DNA of 52,152 bases from Deltaproteobacteria bacterium. GTDB lineage: Bacteria; Myxococcota_A; UBA9160; UBA4427. Positions within the stretch are counted from its first letter, which is position 1, and the number at the start of each line of letters is the position of its first letter. A model generated the notes under the pieces. That model did no database searches. It was not told the origin of the DNA and saw only the letters and a program-made list of their open reading frames with translations. The DNA lies in contig JAJDAN010000014.1 of NCBI GenBank assembly GCA_029261855.1, positions 1-52,152 on the forward strand, read 5' to 3'. This document shows, one piece after another, positions 8,538 to 52,152 of the stretch. The position numbers were made by a program, and so were the translations under genes.

Positions 8538-9749
8538 TCAGTCCTTGTGGTAGTAGGTCTCTCGCTTCCTCGACGCCTCGACGATCGGAATGTCGGCGTC
8601 GGGCAGTTCGGGCAACCAGTTCTTGCGAGCGAGTGCCTTCTCGATGAAGGGCGCTAGCTCCTCGCTCTTTTTGGCATCGCGCGCGGCGCGCGTTTCTTTG
8701 AATTCGGGCAAGACCTCGCGACCGAAGAGTTCGAGACTTTCGCAAATGTGGTCGTGTCGATTCTTGCCACTCTGCTGGAGTAGAACGATCTGGTCGACGC
8801 CGGCCTGCTGGAACTCGCGCACGAATTCGCTGAACTCTCCGGGAGTTCCGATTCCGGGCGAGCCAATCATCGGGAGGTCCCGATCCTTGAGATCCTCGAA
8901 TTCTCCCCAGAGCCGGCTGCGTCCCGGCCGCGCGTCGTTCGCCACGAGTGCGTTGATCGCGTAGCGGAAGAAGGCGAAGCCCTCGGCACCGCGCAGGCGC
9001 CCCTCTTCGACGTTCTGGTGCAGTGAGAAGCCCGCAACGACGGCGATGTTCGCGTTGACCGTGTGCCCGAGCGGTACGCACTCATCGGATTTGATGATCG
9101 AGTAGTAGGCGTCCGCCCAGGTTTTGGCTTCGTCCGGATCGACGAATGTAAACGCAAGCGCGCCGAGGCCGTTGCGAGCTGCGGTTTCGATGGTCTTGCG
9201 GTTCGTGCACGCAAGCCACATCGGCGGGTGCGGTTTCTGCCTCGGCTTGGGGATGACATTCCGGCACGGCATCGAAAACCCTTCGCCTTCGAAGCCGGGG
9301 TACGGATTCATCACCATCATGTTGGCAATTTGCTCCGCGGCCTCGAACGAGAGTGCCTGCTTTCGCTTTGCTGGAACTCCATAACCGTGCAGCTCCAGAC
9401 GCGTCGCGCCCTCCCCGATGCCGAACTCGACCCGGCCATTCGAGACGAGGTCGAGCATCGCGACGGCCTCGGCCGTTCGAGCAGGGTGGTTGTACTGGGG
9501 AATCACCTGGCGGATTCCAAACCCGATTCGGATCTGCTCCGTCTTCGCAGCGAGCGCTGTGAGAAACACTTCGGACGCCGAGCAGTGCGAGTACTCCTCG
9601 AGGAAGTGATGCTCTACCGCCCAGGCATGGTCGATGCCTATTCGATCGGCGATTCGGACCTGCTCGATCGCTTCGTGGATCAGCCGGTGTTCCGCACCCT
9701 CATCCCAGGGCTTCGGAAGCTGTAACTCATAGAATACGCCGAATCGCAT
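8538..9749 (-). CDS. LLM-class flavin-dependent oxidoreductase
   Basis: 403 residues, longer than the usual roughly 350 because of a C-terminal extension (EELAPFIEKALARKNWLPELP) and an internal insert. The N-terminus MRFGVFYELQLPKPW, the barrel segments ADRIGIDHAWAVEHHF and QIRIGFGIRQVIPQYNHP, and SNGRVEFGIGEGATRLEL mark the family. This is a distinct subgroup from the LLMs at 2294 and 3505. The gene follows the fused CoA-transferase gene by 65 bp in the same direction, so both are probably one transcript. A CoA ester as substrate is possible from context, but the substrate is not shown by sequence. Confidence 0.92.
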   Translation of the reverse strand: MRFGVFYELQLPKPWDEGAEHRLIHEAIEQVRIADRIGIDHAWAVEHHFLEEYSHCSASEVFLTALAAKTEQIRIGFGIRQVIPQYNHPARTAEAVAMLDLVSNGRVEFGIGEGATRLELHGYGVPAKRKQALSFEAAEQIANMMVMNPYPGFEGEGFSMPCRNVIPKPRQKPHPPMWLACTNRKTIETAARNGLGALAFTFVDPDEAKTWADAYYSIIKSDECVPLGHTVNANIAVVAGFSLHQNVEEGRLRGAEGFAFFRYAINALVANDARPGRSRLWGEFEDLKDRDLPMIGSPGIGTPGEFSEFVREFQQAGVDQIVLLQQSGKNRHDHICESLELFGREVLPEFKETRAARDAKKSEELAPFIEKALARKNWLPELPDADIPIVEASRKRETYYHKD

Positions 9750-9814: not shown

Positions 9815-12151
9815 CTATCTTCGTATGCTCTGCTCGAGAGCAAAATCGGGCACCGGACTCGATGCGATTCCTGCCGCATAGAGTTCGGCGATCTCGGACT
9901 CGCTCCGTCCGATTTCCGACAGGATCTCTCTGCTGTGCTCCCCCACCCAGGGACCGGCCCGCAGTGGTTCTGAGCCGCCCTCGACCCGAATGGCCCGGCC
10001 CGCGGATGCAAGCTCCCCGAAAAAGGGGTGCTCGTAGCGCCATGTACACTCCCGATCCTCGAAGAAGGGGTCGTCGAGCCGCAGCGGAAATGGAAGCCCG
10101 ACTCGGACGATTTGTAGCCGGCCCGCCGTCAACGCCTGCAGCTGATCCGAAGTCATGGTCCGGAGTTTCTCTTCGAGGAATCCAGCCAATTCACCTCGAC
10201 TCGTAGTGTCCCCTGCAACGCGATCATTTGATATCCCGAAGATCTCCCGGCACTCGGATGCGCCGACCCCCGACGTCGCGTGAACGTAGACCCAGCCGTC
10301 CGCGCACGCGTAGAGTCGGTGCAACGCGTCGCGACCCCGGGGATCCGTCGATGGTCCTTGCTGCCCGAACTCTCGAGCTGCCACGAACTCTGCGACCAGA
10401 TGAAGTGCGACCCCGGACTGCGTGATGCGGGACGCCGATCCTCCGCCGAGACGCTCGCGGCGCCACAACTCGACGAGCACAGTCAGCAGTCCCAGAAAGC
10501 CCGCTCCAAAATCGTTCAGGGAGATCAAGAAGAACACCGGAGAGCCTTCCCGCTCACCCTGCAGCTTCATCTGGCCACTCAAGGCCTGGATGAGGGGGTC
10601 GAAGGAGGGGCGACTCGCGAGGGCTGCATGATCGCCGTAGCCGTCGAACGAGCAGCTGACGAGATCCGGATTGCAGGCCTGCAGCGACGCGGCGTCGAGT
10701 CCGAGTCGCTGCATCGCGTCGCGACGAAATCCCGTGAGCGCAACGTCGGCAGCCCGCAGCAGTGCTCGCGACGACTCGCGCCCCGGATCGCTGTGCAGGT
10801 CGATTGCCAGTCCGCGCTTGCCGCGGTTGATTCCGAGGCAGGAGAGTCCGCTCGAGCGCAGGCCCTCACCACCAGGCGGCTCGATCTTGATCACGTCCGC
10901 ACCGAGATCGCTGAGTAGCGTCCCGCAGATGGGCCCGGCGAGATATGTCGTGAAATCGACGACGCGCAGGCCTGCAAGCGGAGCAGTCGTCTCCTCTGCG
11001 CTGGTTGGTCTTGGCCAGCGGGGAAGCCAGCCGAGATCTTTCAGCAGGCCTCCAGATCCCAGTGCAGGTGGCGGCGAGCTGGAGCGCTGGCGGAACCCCG
11101 CGATGTCACCGGGAAAACGAATCGCGCGTCCCTCACCCATCGGCACCAGAAGCTCGTTGTCTTCGACCACGCCACCTCGAAGGAATTGGTCGAGCTCCTG
11201 CACCGGCTGCGCCGGCACGTCGAAGTCCTCGAAACGAGCAAGGCACTCCGCCACTGTCAGCGCCGCGATCCGAGGCTCGAGGGCCTCGGCCTGGGCGGGC
11301 TGGTGTTCACTCGGCACGGCCCATGGGGCGCGCTCGAAGCGAGGATCCACGACTAGATCTGGCAGATCCAGAGCGAGACAGAAGCGGCTATAGAAGTCGG
11401 GACTCGTGCAGGCCACGCAGACCCAGCCGTCGCTGGCTTCGAAACAGCGATAGGCCTGGTTCTGTCCGAGTGGCGATCGCCACCGCAACGAAATCCCTCC
11501 GCCGCCCGGTCCCTTCGACGAGGTTCCGACCATCCCGACGAGGAGTGTCGAAACAGCGAGCTGGGAAACCTCGATACGCGGAGACCTTCCGTGGCGTTCT
11601 CTAGCGAGCAACGCGGCGGCGCAACTCGCCGCCGCCAGCATCCCCGTGAATATGGCCAGAGCAGGGAACACGTAACGCGTTGGCCCGTCCTCGTAGCCCG
11701 CTTGCACCCATAGCAGGCCGGTCGCCGCAGCCATCGCATCATCGTCGACCGGCAGTTCCCGACCGGACCGATCTCCAACTTGCGGCAATGTGACGAGCGA
11801 GGCGCTTCCCCCTTCGATGAGCTCGTGCGGATCGATCCCCATGCCGTCCAGCGCGCGCAACCAATATTCGTCGATCAGCACGACATCGGCTCCGCGGGCC
11901 GCGGCCTCCAGTGCGCTGCGGTCCTGGGACGAGCCCAGCTCACAGAGAACGGAGCGCTTGCCCCCGTTGAAGGCGGCGAATGCCGACTGACCGCGCGCCG
12001 TGTCACCCGTGGGAGATTCGACCTTGACGACCGATGCACCCAGCGCGACCAGGTGTGCGGCGGCGCTGGGACCCGCCACGCCATCACACAGCTCTAGCAC
12101 CCGCACATCGTCGAGCGGGGCAGGCGCAGGTGTCTTTTCAGAGCCCGCCAT
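9815..12151 (-). CDS. Tandem (fused) class III CoA-transferase, CaiB/BaiF family
   Basis: 778 residues, about twice the normal length. Two CaiB-like domains lie in series: domain 1 about residues 10-380 (VRVLELCDGVAGPSAAAHL, GASVVKVE) and domain 2 from about 390 (LRVVDFTTYLAGPICGTLL, GADVIKIEPP). The catalytic aspartate that forms the aspartyl-CoA intermediate is present in domain 2 (D547 in SLNDFGAG). The matching stretch of domain 1 reads FPALAIFTG, with alanine there, so domain 1 looks catalytically dead. Since these enzymes work as interlocked dimers, the fusion may be an obligate pseudo-heterodimer. The ATG at 12151 with AGGAGAGG upstream is preferred to a GTG at 12232. It transfers CoA between acids; the donor and acceptor are unknown. 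Confidence 0.9.
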   Translation of the reverse strand: MAGSEKTPAPAPLDDVRVLELCDGVAGPSAAAHLVALGASVVKVESPTGDTARGQSAFAAFNGGKRSVLCELGSSQDRSALEAAARGADVVLIDEYWLRALDGMGIDPHELIEGGSASLVTLPQVGDRSGRELPVDDDAMAAATGLLWVQAGYEDGPTRYVFPALAIFTGMLAAASCAAALLARERHGRSPRIEVSQLAVSTLLVGMVGTSSKGPGGGGISLRWRSPLGQNQAYRCFEASDGWVCVACTSPDFYSRFCLALDLPDLVVDPRFERAPWAVPSEHQPAQAEALEPRIAALTVAECLARFEDFDVPAQPVQELDQFLRGGVVEDNELLVPMGEGRAIRFPGDIAGFRQRSSSPPPALGSGGLLKDLGWLPRWPRPTSAEETTAPLAGLRVVDFTTYLAGPICGTLLSDLGADVIKIEPPGGEGLRSSGLSCLGINRGKRGLAIDLHSDPGRESSRALLRAADVALTGFRRDAMQRLGLDAASLQACNPDLVSCSFDGYGDHAALASRPSFDPLIQALSGQMKLQGEREGSPVFFLISLNDFGAGFLGLLTVLVELWRRERLGGGSASRITQSGVALHLVAEFVAAREFGQQGPSTDPRGRDALHRLYACADGWVYVHATSGVGASECREIFGISNDRVAGDTTSRGELAGFLEEKLRTMTSDQLQALTAGRLQIVRVGLPFPLRLDDPFFEDRECTWRYEHPFFGELASAGRAIRVEGGSEPLRAGPWVGEHSREILSEIGRSESEIAELYAAGIASSPVPDFALEQSIRR

Positions 12152-20835: not shown

Positions 20836-21087
20836 ATGCTGAAGGCAGTCAACGATCCGATCGCCCGGCAGCTCTACAGCGTCTCCCTGTCCGCGCGTCG
20901 CGTGGTTCTCTTCTCGACGATGCCGACTTCCACGTATATCGTCACCCAGCTAGAGCAGATTCTCGGCACGTATCTGTGCGCCGAGGAAAGCGGGGCTGCG
21001 ATCATGGAGGGCATCGGTCTGGATGGTCAATCCCTCGGACAGCGGATAGGTGAGCGGCACCCGGTACGCGAGATGAAGCACCGATGA
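20836..21087 (+). CDS. Small ORF of unknown function coupled to CoA-transferase gene
   Basis: 83 codons from the ATG at 20836 (a GTG at 20824 is also possible). I do not recognise the product; it contains LYSVSLSARRVVLFSTMP and YIVTQLEQILGTYLCAEE. The stop overlaps the next gene's start as ATGA, which favours translation. On the other hand the preceding 500 bp are gene remnants, so this may be the tail of another broken gene. No membrane segment or metal motif is visible. Confidence 0.35.
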   Translation: MLKAVNDPIARQLYSVSLSARRVVLFSTMPTSTYIVTQLEQILGTYLCAEESGAAIMEGIGLDGQSLGQRIGERHPVREMKHR

Positions 21088-22277
21088 AAGGCATTCGACC
21101 CCTCACGGGCATCCGGGTGCTGGACCTGAGCCGCGTCGTGGCCGGTCCGCTCTGCGGCCGGATGCTCGCCGATCAGGGCGCGGAGGTGATCAAGGTCGAG
21201 CCGCCGCGGCGGGACATGACCCGCAAGGCGCCTCCGATCGTCGCAGGATTCAGCTCGTACTACGCCCATCTGAACGCTGGGAAGATCGGACTGTGTGTCG
21301 ACTTGGCCGACGCGGAGGCCGCCCAGCTGGTCGGGCGACTGGCAGACGCGTCCGACGTCGTCCTGGAGAACTTTCGCCCCGGCATCCTCGAGCGCTTCGG
21401 GCTCGATGCCGCGAGCCTCCGGCGGCGGAATCCAAGGCTCGTCTACTGCTCGATCAGCGGCTATGGCCAGGCGGGGCCGTGGGCGGACCGGCGTTGCTAC
21501 GCACCCGTTGTTCATGGCGAGGCGGGCCTCATCGCGACCAACGCACGTCTGCACGATATCTCCGCGCGCCCCGAGGCCCTCTCGCACGCCGACATTCAGT
21601 CCGGCTTGATGGCGACGGCTGCGATCAGCTCGGCGCTCTTCGCGCGCGAGCGCACAGGCGAGGGCGCCCACCTCGACGTATCGCTCGCCGAAGTCACGGT
21701 CTACCTGAACGAGTTCAGCGCCCCGGAGCTATGCGGACAGACCGGCCCCGCTACCTATGCGGGTGCCGCCTCGCTTGTGCTCACCCTGGGAGACGGCACT
21801 TCCGTGGTCACGCAGGGGAACCCGGTCGACAACTTCGGGATGTGGGCGAAGGCGATGGGCCGCCCCGAGCTCCGCGAGGACCCGCGCTTCACGACACAGG
21901 CCGCGAGGATCCGCAACCGCACCGAGATCGATAGGCTCATCCTCGAGTTCTCACTCGGCTTCGATTCCTTCGAAGCGCTCCACGCGTGCGTCGACCCGCA
22001 TCGCATCGCCGTCGGTGTCGTCCGCAGCGTGAGCGATCTGGCCGAAACCGATTGGGCCAAGGAGCGCCGGCTCGTCTCAGAGCCGATCGCGGGGCTGCGA
22101 ATTCCGCGCGTTCCCTATCGATCGACGAGTGGTGAGATCGGCGTGGGCACCCGGCCCCCGATGCGTGGCGAGCACAACCGCGAAACCTTCGTTCGCCTGG
22201 CAGGACTGGACGACGCGGCCGTCGATCGGCTCTTCGCGCGCGGCGCACTCCTGACGGCGGACGACGGGAACAGCTGA
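21084..22277 (+). CDS. Class III CoA-transferase (CaiB/BaiF family)
   Basis: 397 residues, normal family length. N-terminal GIRVLDLSRVVAGPLCGRML and GAEVIKVEPP, then LENFRPGILERFGLD and CSISGYGQAGP are classical. The catalytic aspartate is D170 in LSHADIQSG, the position equivalent to D169 of formyl-CoA transferase, so the enzyme should be active. The C-terminal GEHNRETF is also typical. It moves CoA from a donor thioester to a free acid; partners unknown. It overlaps the upstream small ORF by ATGA and ends 4 bp from the convergent nitronate-monooxygenase-like gene. Confidence 0.94.
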   Translation: MKGIRPLTGIRVLDLSRVVAGPLCGRMLADQGAEVIKVEPPRRDMTRKAPPIVAGFSSYYAHLNAGKIGLCVDLADAEAAQLVGRLADASDVVLENFRPGILERFGLDAASLRRRNPRLVYCSISGYGQAGPWADRRCYAPVVHGEAGLIATNARLHDISARPEALSHADIQSGLMATAAISSALFARERTGEGAHLDVSLAEVTVYLNEFSAPELCGQTGPATYAGAASLVLTLGDGTSVVTQGNPVDNFGMWAKAMGRPELREDPRFTTQAARIRNRTEIDRLILEFSLGFDSFEALHACVDPHRIAVGVVRSVSDLAETDWAKERRLVSEPIAGLRIPRVPYRSTSGEIGVGTRPPMRGEHNRETFVRLAGLDDAAVDRLFARGALLTADDGNS

Positions 22278-45680: not shown

Positions 45681-45749
45681 ATGCGGAAGAAGTCTCTGCA
45701 GGCAGCACTCAACGAGATAGACGCGCGGCTCGAAACTCTTCGGGCCTAA
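45681..45749 (+). CDS. Possible 22-residue small ORF
   Basis: MRKKSLQAALNEIDARLETL followed by RA and TAA; a GATGAGG lies about nine bases upstream. The peptide would be one amphipathic helix. It overlaps the convergent monooxygenase stop by 4 bp and is too short to judge. It could equally be the tail end of mRNA from the thioesterase gene. Low confidence. Confidence 0.15.
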   Translation: MRKKSLQAALNEIDARLETLRA

Positions 45750-47575
45750 CGAATCTCGAGCCCCCGCAGCGTTCCCTCTGCGCGCCAATCGGCGATCAGC
45801 TCGAAGAAACTCACGGGTCCGGCGCCGAACTGGCCATTCATGAACCCGTTGCGGTTTCCGACTTCTCCTTCGTTGCTGTAGTAGCCGGGCGTGCACTTCG
45901 CGAAGTGGCGCTCCACCGCGTCGGCGCTTTGCTCGATGACGGCAACCCAAGCATCCTCGGCCTCCTGGGTGGGTTCGATCGTCTTCGCGGCGCGCTTGTG
46001 GCCCTCCTCGATCACATAGGCGATGTGCTGGGCCTGCTCGCCGAGCATGTGGGTGAAGTTGGGCGAAACCCCGGTCTGGATGTAGCCGAGGAAGAAGCAG
46101 TTGGGAAACCCGCGGCTGAGGATGCCGTGCAAGGTCGAAGGCCTATACGCCCATCTCTCGCTCAACATCGCGCCGTCCCTTCCGATCACGTCGTAGCCCG
46201 AGCGCGTGGTGTAGCTGCTGCCCAGCTCGAAGCCTGTCCCGAAAATCAGACAATCGACCTCGTATTCCCTGCCGCCCACGACAACACCTTTCGGGGTGAT
46301 CCGTTCGACGCCTTGGCCGTGAGTATCTACCAGGGAAACGGTTGGAAGATTGTAGGTCTCGAGATACTCGTCGTGGAAGCAGGGTCGCTTACAGAACTGC
46401 CAGTAGTAGGCCTTCAAAGCCTCGGCGGTCGCTTCGTCCTCGACGACGCTCGACACTCGATCTCGGATCTCTTCCATCTTCTTCAGATCCGCGAGCTCCC
46501 GAAGTTCCTTCTTCTGCTCCGGTGTCGTCTTCGTCTTCTCACGCTCCATTTTCTCTGCGCTGTTGGCTACATCCGTCCAACCGTCATTCACCTGATCCTG
46601 TGCCGACTTCGCCTTCTTGGGTCGCCCACCGGTGACCAGGAGGCTGAAGTTCTCGACACGCTTCTTGTGCCAACCCGGCTCGAGCCTCTTGACCCATTCG
46701 GGATCGGTGGGAGCGTTGTTTCTCACATCGACCGACGAAGGCGTACGCTGAAAGACGTAGAGCTGCTTGGCCGACTCCCCCAGGTGAGGAACGCACTGCA
46801 CTGCCGTTGCGCCCGTTCCGATCATCCCGACGCGCTTATCGGCAAGCCCCGTGAGCTTGCCTTCAGAGCTGCCACCTGTATACGCATAGTCCCAGCGACT
46901 GGTGTGGAAGGTATGGCCTTCGAAGGACGTAATCCCTGGGATGCCGGGGAGCTTCGGGCGCGTCAGGACTCCGTTCGCCATGATCACGTAGTGGGCCTTG
47001 ATCACGTCCTTGCGGTCCGTGTAAATGGCCCAGAGCTTGCTCTCCTCGTCCCAGCGAAGCTCAGTGACCTCCGTCTGGAAGCAGGTGTCCCGATAGAGGT
47101 CGAATTTCTTCGCGATCGCGATGGCGTGATCCAGGATTTCCGGCGCGTGCGAATACCTCTCTTTGGGGATGTAGTCGAGCTCCTCGAGCAGGGGGAAGTA
47201 GACGAACGACTCCACGTCACACTGAGCACCGGGATACCGGTTCCAGTACCAGGTGCCGCCGAAATCGCCCGCCTTTTCGATGAAGCGGATATCGTTCAAC
47301 CCGGCCTTTCGGAGCTGTACGCCGGCCAGCAGTCCACCGAATCCACCGCCGATGATGAGCACTTCGACCTGATCGGTGAGCGGCTCTCGCTCGAAGCCGG
47401 GTTCCACATAGTGGTCCTCCATGAAACCAGCGAGATCCCCCGTGGCTTGCTGGTACTGACCGAACCCGTCCTTCCGGATTCGCTTGTCTCGCTCCTCTGC
47501 ATACTTCTCGCGCAGTTCATCCGGATCGAAGTCGAGGTTCGAAGTGTCGATCGAGTACTTTTTCAGCTCTGTCAT
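45746..47575 (-). CDS. Baeyer-Villiger-type flavin monooxygenase
   Basis: 609 residues from the ATG at 47575; 37 low-complexity upstream residues in frame are discarded. FAD motif GGGFGG (76-81), Baeyer-Villiger fingerprint F218-G220-H224-W228-D229 (FEGHTFHTSRWD), and GTGATA for NADPH. It is homologous over its length to the enzyme at 23443-25260, with a shared N-terminal extension (EERDKRIRKDG versus VERDKRIRPDG), so the two are paralogues or separate recruits of one subfamily. It contains a charged insert (EREKTKTTPEQKKELREL) the other lacks. It lies 225 bp downstream of DUF35 and has its own candidate operator. Confidence 0.94.
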   Translation of the reverse strand: MTELKKYSIDTSNLDFDPDELREKYAEERDKRIRKDGFGQYQQATGDLAGFMEDHYVEPGFEREPLTDQVEVLIIGGGFGGLLAGVQLRKAGLNDIRFIEKAGDFGGTWYWNRYPGAQCDVESFVYFPLLEELDYIPKERYSHAPEILDHAIAIAKKFDLYRDTCFQTEVTELRWDEESKLWAIYTDRKDVIKAHYVIMANGVLTRPKLPGIPGITSFEGHTFHTSRWDYAYTGGSSEGKLTGLADKRVGMIGTGATAVQCVPHLGESAKQLYVFQRTPSSVDVRNNAPTDPEWVKRLEPGWHKKRVENFSLLVTGGRPKKAKSAQDQVNDGWTDVANSAEKMEREKTKTTPEQKKELRELADLKKMEEIRDRVSSVVEDEATAEALKAYYWQFCKRPCFHDEYLETYNLPTVSLVDTHGQGVERITPKGVVVGGREYEVDCLIFGTGFELGSSYTTRSGYDVIGRDGAMLSERWAYRPSTLHGILSRGFPNCFFLGYIQTGVSPNFTHMLGEQAQHIAYVIEEGHKRAAKTIEPTQEAEDAWVAVIEQSADAVERHFAKCTPGYYSNEGEVGNRNGFMNGQFGAGPVSFFELIADWRAEGTLRGLEIR

Positions 47576-47689
47576 CGTCGATGTCGCCCCCGACGTACCC
47601 GCCGGCGGCTGCCCCTTGTTCGGCGGCCGAGGCGACAGGCAGAGGCCTCGGCGTTCGTGTCGGCTGTTGGCGGCCGCCCCGGTCACGAA

Positions 47690-50632: not shown

Positions 50633-51925
50633 TCAGTGCCCGCCGGAGCTCCCCAGGGCCTCGATCTCGTCGGCGGACAGCCCCAGGTCGGCAAAGACCT
50701 CGCGATTGTGTTCCCCCAGCCGTGGCGCCGGGCGGGAGATGCGCCACGGGGTCTTCTCGAAGACATAGGGCGCCCCGGGATAGGTGAACGTCTCGCCGAG
50801 CTCGGGGTGCTCCACCTCGACCGGGAAGCCGCGGGCGCGGAAGTGCTCGTCTTCCATCGCCTCCTCGGGCGAATAGATGACTCCCACCGTGATGCCCCGC
50901 TTCTGGGCGCCCTCGAAGAAGTCATAGGCCGAGACCCGCGAGGCAATGAAGTTCAGCGCCTCGCGTGCCGCGCCGAAGATGGCGGTGAGCTCTTCGTTGC
51001 TTCCGATCTGCGAAAGATCGATATGATCGCGCTCGGCTCCCATCTGGATGAAGATCGCCTCGGGGAACTCATCCGTGAGGCCGAGCTCGACGAGCCACTG
51101 GTAGAGCGTCGCGAACTCGGCCGGCGTTCGAGGAGGCACACCAGTCGTCGCATGGCGCCCATCGGCGCACTCGATCTGGGTCGGCAAGGTCGAGAACTCC
51201 ATCGCGTGCCGTCCCGTCTGACGCTGCACGGTTCCCTTCGACACCAGCCAGTGATACGAGGCCATCTCGGTCGTGACGTTGCACGCCGCGTGTGCGTTCA
51301 CGTCGACGTGCTGTCCCTGACCCGTCGCCTCGCGCACGAGGACTGCCGTAAGCGCCGACATGACGGCGTAGTGACACGCGGTCTGATATCCCTGGTTGCC
51401 ACCACCCCGGACTGGGGGAAGCGAGTGGTCGTCGTAGCCGCAGCTCCAGACCGGACCGCCTTCGGCCAGCAGCGTGAGGTCCGTCGCGAGATCGTCACGG
51501 CGCAATCCCTGCTGGCCGAAGGGTGTGATCGAGACGGTGATCAACTCCGGCCGCTCGGCGATCAGGGCGGCGTGGTCGAGACCGAGCCCCGCGAGCCGCC
51601 CCGGAGCCTCGCACTCGAGCAGCAAGTCGGCCGTACCGATCAGGCGTCGAAGGAGCTCGCGATCCGGCTCGGCATCGAGGTCGAGCGTGACGCCGCGCTT
51701 GCTCGTGTTGTAGTGCCACCAGAAGAGGCTGCCCTCCGGGTCCGGAACGTCGTCCCGGAAGGGTTCGTAGCCGCGCATCGGGCTTCCCCCGGGCGGCTCT
51801 ACGCAGATGACGTCGGCACCCATGTCCGCGAGGAGCTTCCCGGCGAAGGCGCCCAGCTCACTCGACAGCTCCACCACACGGATGCCGTCCAAGGCCGCCG
51901 CCGCAGCGCCGTGCGCGGCACTCAA
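50633..51925 (-). CDS. Class III CoA-transferase family protein, catalytic Asp not evident
   Basis: 430 residues. GIRVVELSSELGAFAGKLL, GADVICVEPPGGSP and the C-terminal RLGEHNREVF are clear CaiB features. In the region that normally carries the catalytic aspartate the sequence is GGGNQGYQTACHYAVM, with no obvious aspartate. The start appears to be TTG at 51925, overlapping the stop of the preceding CoA-transferase gene (TTGA); no ATG exists near the conserved beginning. Two adjacent CaiB genes, one possibly degenerate, parallel the fused pair at 9815-12151. Function as a partner subunit is plausible. Confidence 0.88.
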   Translation of the reverse strand: MSAAHGAAAAALDGIRVVELSSELGAFAGKLLADMGADVICVEPPGGSPMRGYEPFRDDVPDPEGSLFWWHYNTSKRGVTLDLDAEPDRELLRRLIGTADLLLECEAPGRLAGLGLDHAALIAERPELITVSITPFGQQGLRRDDLATDLTLLAEGGPVWSCGYDDHSLPPVRGGGNQGYQTACHYAVMSALTAVLVREATGQGQHVDVNAHAACNVTTEMASYHWLVSKGTVQRQTGRHAMEFSTLPTQIECADGRHATTGVPPRTPAEFATLYQWLVELGLTDEFPEAIFIQMGAERDHIDLSQIGSNEELTAIFGAAREALNFIASRVSAYDFFEGAQKRGITVGVIYSPEEAMEDEHFRARGFPVEVEHPELGETFTYPGAPYVFEKTPWRISRPAPRLGEHNREVFADLGLSADEIEALGSSGGH

Positions 51926-52152
51926 ATCACACCCTCCTCGCGCAGCCCCTCGATCTCGCTCGCGGAGATACCGAGCAGCTCACCATAGACCCGTTCGTTG
52001 TGCTCGCCGAGACACGGGCCACCGTGCTCGATGTGCCAGTCGGTCTTCGAGAAGTGGACCGGCAGCCCGTCGACGCGAACCGTCCCCATCTTCTGGTGTA
52101 CCGCCTCGGGGAAGAGCCCCCAGGCTTCCACGTTCGGGTTCTGGTCGATCCG
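51922..52152 (-). CDS. Class III CoA-transferase, 3' end only (cut by window edge)
   Basis: The frame is open through the right edge; 76 C-terminal residues are visible. Segments FPEAVHQKMGTVRVDGLPVHF, read in parts, and HGGPCLGEHNERVYGELLG are the C-terminal signature of CaiB/BaiF proteins (LGEHN...). Its stop overlaps the TTG start of the next CoA-transferase gene. Upstream gene of the rightmost operon; the catalytic half lies outside the window. Confidence 0.85.
   Translation of the reverse strand, partial: RIDQNPNVEAWGLFPEAVHQKMGTVRVDGLPVHFSKTDWHIEHGGPCLGEHNERVYGELLGISASEIEGLREEGVI

Follow-up and report, generated by a model that had tools for sequence, protein, structure and literature searches.

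A fused two-domain family III CoA-transferase predicted to keep its catalytic aspartate in the second half only

The 52,152 nucleotides analyzed here (the window) make up contig C14 in full, one of 91 contigs of a Deltaproteobacteria assembly of 6.96 Mb. On its minus strand, at 9815 to 12151, lies a gene for a two-domain family III CoA-transferase, with an ATG at 12151 and a stop codon ending at 9815; a preliminary description of this DNA had the coordinates right, and the gene has 778 codons. The 778-residue protein is encoded in one uninterrupted frame, so that it is not two separate chains as in BbsEF, and PF02515 matches it in two stretches (414.3 bits, curated cut-off 23.3).

Two neighboring genes are on the same strand: a luciferase-like monooxygenase gene (8538 to 9749), 65 bases downstream of the CoA-transferase gene, and a P450 gene (12485 to 14248). 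The 587-residue P450 ORF has a Pfam match at residues 358–555 only, and its best NCBIfam models start at approximately residue 195–207; because the first part matches no family, the true start may lie inside the ORF. The contig also carries further P450s, thiolase-like proteins, amidohydrolases, an AMP-binding enzyme, acyl-CoA dehydrogenases and flavin monooxygenases. A flavin monooxygenase at 45746 to 47686 scores 769.6 bits, short of the required 1100, on the neopentalenolactone/pentalenolactone D synthase model; we take this model to be of the Baeyer-Villiger type. Breakdown of terpenoid or steroid acids via CoA esters would fit these neighbors. Two further CoA-transferase loci are present: a pair of genes at 50633 to 52152, and a single-domain family III CoA-transferase gene with the aspartate on the plus strand (21084 to 22277), which belongs to neither pair and serves as a comparison.

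The fused protein divides into an N half (approximately residues 1–388; 10988 to 12151, minus strand) and a C half (approximately residues 386–778; 9818 to 10996, minus strand). The C half carries the catalytic residue D547 (minus-strand codon at 10511 to 10513) within LNDFGAG, residues 545–551, as had been described, and is predicted to be live from alignments and from its matches to solved structures. Asp169 of formyl-CoA transferase (Frc) and the aspartate of YfdE share the D547 column, and D547 is invariant in 15/15 aligned doubles (two-domain proteins). In the N half the corresponding stretch is FPALAIFTG (residues 162–170), likewise already noted as having no aspartate; A166 (minus-strand codon at 11654 to 11656) occupies the Asp column, and sequence alignments predict this half to be dead. 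A166 aligns with the catalytic aspartate of human SUGCT, with that of two Asp-bearing N halves (alignment A1) and with that of other CoA-transferases (alignment A3), and a profile aligner places a gap in half 1 at the Asp column. An aspartate in domain 1 matching D169 of formyl-CoA transferase had been named as evidence against a dead half; the alignments place A166 there, and D155 (in YEDGPTRYV), the nearest preceding aspartate at eleven residues upstream, aligns elsewhere. The proposal of one live and one dead half is thus supported from the sequence.

A relative, L061, from the assembly Planctomycetota bacterium OFTM161, is 74% identical to the window protein over residues 1–748 and has FPALALFSG in half 1, with alanine at the Asp column, and SMNDFGAG in half 2. 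Because L061 comes from another assembly and has the same state, a sequencing error at A166 is unlikely, and because it matches the window protein in both halves, the loss of the aspartate is kept in two assemblies. L061 was the one close relative found in a further search; across 79 genomes of the same order, with up to 13 candidates scored in each, the best match beyond the own genome reached 155.7 bits. The search for relatives also found 11 loci in viral contigs, and a subsequent search yielded none. Two fused CoA transferases of Rhodococcus plasmids, WP_081559037.1 and WP_085470503.1, are 31.1% and 29.2% identical to the window protein over 97% of its length, with glycine or serine in the N half and aspartate in the C half.

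Comparison of the whole 778-residue protein with solved CoA-transferases gives its best matches through half 2 (top match 10uh, residues 390–763). Half 1 by itself finds 5yiy and others with a lower score (87.4 bits), most of its length being covered, and it retains G38, A39, V41, E45, R53, K65 and D89, which are invariant in the 15 aligned doubles. Moreover, half 1 is 77% identical to that of L061, versus 73% for half 2. These matches, the kept invariant residues and the relative identities of the halves argue that half 1 is a constrained domain and not debris. That it is merely decaying and functionless would agree with its lack of both the aspartate and the NFxPG motif, but the identity to L061 speaks against decay, as does the coverage of most of the profile by each half throughout the 122 two-domain ORFs surveyed below (itself a cut-off of the count), and we regard this explanation as very improbable.

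The pair at the right end of the window presents an unfused arrangement. The gene at 50633 to 51925 (minus strand) encodes a separate dead subunit with tyrosine at the Asp position, as anticipated by the earlier remark that one member of the pair has no clear aspartate; among solved structures it comes closest to the BbsEF chain 9fn0_A (207.5 bits), which likewise has tyrosine in this column. The partner at 51922 to 52152 (minus strand) is cut by the contig end to its last 76 codons and the stop, which leaves the position of its aspartate outside the window. The remainder of this live partner is on contig C35 (L066, 3648–4913) and carries the aspartate in GWGYSYMDHTG, and homologs match both pieces in order. 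The right ends of C14 (window 52012 to 52152) and C35 (the last 141 bases of L066) share 141 identical bases, and the two contigs are therefore probably genomic neighbors. A homolog of the partner in another genome (L092) has its best solved match in 9fn0_B, the aspartate of which is residue 178; the title of entry 9fol names a D178-CoA adduct. At the homologous loci L088–L102 (L103 was not counted) the aspartate is present in the upstream gene in 15/15 cases and in none of the downstream genes, where the column holds tyrosine (11), phenylalanine (2), alanine (1) or tryptophan (1). The order of the two genes varies, with the live gene first in L088–L102 and the dead gene first in L133. The 50633/51922 pair thus has the BbsEF-type arrangement, a dead subunit and a live partner gene, and groups with the BbsEF chains.

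We surveyed 122 two-domain ORFs, comprising 11 from the own genome, 107 from other genomes (among the matches listed), three plasmid proteins and L061. Domain matches had to span more than 250 profile positions, identical copies were merged, and doubles interrupted by a stop between the two domains were counted as singles. The 107 ORFs came from a search with a profile whose 15 rows are known doubles, two of them with an Asp-bearing N half; beyond the own genome, the survey is therefore not an unbiased sample. Among the matches listed, the aspartate is present in 122/122 second halves and in 15/122 first halves. The remaining first halves of these listed ORFs have glutamate (33), histidine (14), tyrosine (14) or serine (13), less commonly glycine (7), tryptophan (7), phenylalanine (6), alanine (5) or a gap (3), and rarely leucine (2), threonine, valine or glutamine (1 each). 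Fused genes with one dead half always have that half first, among the matches listed.

All 11 two-domain genes of the own genome have the aspartate in the second half, and two of them also have it in the first; a broken ORF with two partial domains (C48:128500-132500, L081) was dropped. Twenty-five single-domain proteins or pieces of this genome were read, a set that excludes the full-length C11:179654, C34:80429 and C26:29752 and three short edge pieces; 24 have the aspartate and one, that at 50633, has tyrosine. Over all singles, 26/113 are without the aspartate, which is no frequency since the loci were partly picked by similarity to 50633. The own genome has 55 PF02515 matches, 22 of them within the 11 fused genes. 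The two fused genes with the aspartate in both halves are C13:56481-58829 (L065) and C35:6782-9133 (L066), and their N halves lie inside the dead-half clade of the tree described next.

The main tree contains 359 domains and was built with the Asp column and its neighboring columns left out. One clade (support 0.997) holds the N halves of 113 of the 122 ORFs listed, all 26 singles without the aspartate, among them 50633, and 9fn0_A; a second clade (support 0.998) holds 113 C halves of the ORFs listed, 26 live singles, including the partner of 50633, and 9fn0_B. All 15 Asp-bearing N halves sit inside the dead clade, and only nine changes of the Asp state are needed on the tree; the p value of a Fisher test on the counts takes no account of this kinship. 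By these clades, the split between live and dead domains is probably older than most of the fusions, and each side of it holds fused as well as unfused forms. The same clades appear in a second tree, of 81 rows (SH-aLRT 97 for the dead clade and 99 for the live clade). In the main tree, nine doubles fall outside both clades, including the window gene, L061 and the Rhodococcus and Embleya plasmid proteins; placing the eight second-lineage N halves in one clade (L132 left out) was not rejected (p 0.458). The mirror-tree correlation between halves (r 0.927) is expected for the halves of one gene and carries no evidential weight.

The separate pair had been thought to be the unfused version of the same idea as the fused gene. 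As to design this stands, a dead subunit lying beside a live one throughout the relatives counted; as to lineage it probably does not, since by the tree the pair belongs with the other, 113-member group. The halves of the window gene lie apart from the clades of the pair in both trees, as a phylogeny of the kind the preliminary description proposed could reveal, albeit with borderline statistics: when the window-gene and L061 halves are forced into these clades, the log-likelihood falls by 18.5 and 24.5 units, with AU p values of 0.049 and 0.0507. A shared ancient dead/live split for the window gene and the 50633/51922 pair would draw on these borderline tests, and on a polarity (dead first, live second) that the window gene shares with the rest of the fused genes in which one half is dead. 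Against such a common split, neither half of the window gene lies within the dead or the live clade in the two trees, and half 1 is most similar to live singles outside both clades (30% identity at best), followed by main-lineage C halves (28%) and N halves (26%). We consider a single origin somewhat unlikely. An origin of the window gene separate from the 113-member lineage is likely but not proved, given the borderline AU values.

Subunits of family III CoA-transferases interlock. We think it probable, from the sequence features described above, that the window protein is a family III CoA-transferase of the CaiB/Frc type, with two domains and a single working aspartate site per chain, at D547. 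By analogy to the family, D547 would form covalent intermediates first with the acyl group and then with CoA, the CoA being passed to an acid, and half 1 would keep its fold, complete the interlocked pair and lend its small domain to the D547 site. To judge from the neighboring genes, the likely substrate would be a carboxylic acid intermediate of the surrounding oxygenase/acyl-CoA gene cluster. Formation of covalent intermediates by the aspartate of this family is described in the available portion of PMC6006322, and according to excerpts of PMC3720670 the aspartate and the GNxH loop of one YfdE site are supplied by different subunits.

The loop bears directly on which halves pair. In the main lineage (113 doubles listed) the C half has the aspartate in 113/113, the GN-loop asparagine in 102/113 and the following proline in 112/113, whereas the commonest states of the N half at the same columns are glutamate (33; aspartate in 15), a gap (28) and a gap (33; proline in 26). 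Because the loop is thus conserved on the live half itself, simple half-to-half pairing, and with it the pseudo-heterodimer that the preliminary description proposed, is not to be taken for granted. With pairing inside a chain, the conserved loop would face the dead site; either its conservation would have some other cause, or live halves would pair across two chains. An arrangement without pairing inside a chain, in which C halves from two chains form ordinary sites and the N halves pair separately as a dead scaffold, would match the one-sided loop pattern and the division of aspartate and loop between YfdE subunits. Its weaknesses are that the loop may be retained for some other reason, that the window protein has the GN...AP loop motif in neither half, and that the 35 distinct solved sequences matched, the longest of 456 residues, include no two-domain chain. 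For the window protein we see this arrangement as unlikely, and pairing of half 1 with half 2 remains our preferred reading.

Structure prediction adds little to this choice. The model of the full 778-residue chain (mean pLDDT 55.7, pTM 0.56), the alignment behind which had eight single-domain rows, all on half 2, is too poor to show interlocking, and a model of half 1 alone (mean pLDDT 65.0, pTM 0.59) is too weak to superpose residues. Fold searches with these weak models rank family III CoA-transferases first for both half 1 and the whole chain, although the CoA-transferase rows of the whole-chain search span only residues 387–769; with rmsd values of about 13–18 angstroms, the searches amount to agreement with the sequence result only.

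Half 1 could also have a second job, binding CoA or substrate without an aspartate or performing a second reaction as in DddD, a two-domain protein that is both a transferase and a lyase according to the available parts of PMC6006322 and PMC4437653. Main-lineage N halves do have near-invariant residues with no C-half counterpart (among them Asp 27 in 111/113 and Gly 241 in 113/113), but they have mostly lost the Asn-Phe of NFxPG (both present in 4/113, versus 63/113 C halves), and the window protein gives no sign of a second reaction. We hold such a role to be quite unlikely.

For the family as a whole, we suggest, with a rather low probability for the account in its entirety, that asymmetric CoA-transferases arose at least twice. 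An ancient dead/live split would have given the BbsEF-type subunits and most of the fused enzymes surveyed, while the window fused gene, with relatives in actinobacteria, would have lost its half-1 aspartate independently. The live halves of the main lineage may pair between chains, in which case the dead half would act as a scaffold instead of forming half of a site.

The window gene is one more two-domain CoA-transferase; Rv1866 is also a fused member. What is of use is the one-sided rule in the surveyed set, with the aspartate always in the second half and rarely in the first, together with a tree that ties most surveyed doubles to the BbsEF subunits. Which halves pair is a testable question raised by the loop pattern.

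The fused dead/live design itself is already known and is not special to the window gene. A two-domain enzyme with the aspartate in its C-terminal domain is in print: in the available portion of PMC6006322, mutation of the C-domain aspartate of PtmU4 lowers activity 125–400-fold, and DddD is given as the only member characterized before PtmU4. The accessible part of PMC7174347 ascribes two CaiB domains to DddD of Endozoicomonas. For the structures of BbsEF and DddD, we found no text in open-licence PubMed Central. Like the window protein, PtmU4 and DddD have tandem family III domains with the conserved aspartate C-terminal, a likeness taken from their published description; the reactions are distinct, PtmU4 moving sulfur and DddD cleaving DMSP in the portions of PMC6006322 and PMC4437653 available. 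Formyl-CoA transferase and YfdE of E. coli belong to the same domain family, with the aspartate at the D547 column, but have one domain and an aspartate in every subunit. The Rhodococcus plasmid CoA transferases are fused like the window protein, although their neighbors differ and they are annotated only as CoA transferase. BbsEF, the succinyl-CoA:(R)-benzylsuccinate CoA-transferase (PDB 9fn0, 9fol and 9fun), resembles the window protein in combining a part without the aspartate and a part with it, chain A having tyrosine and chain B D178 at the catalytic column; it differs in consisting of two separate chains, and in the trees groups with the 50633 pair and the 113 doubles rather than with the window gene.
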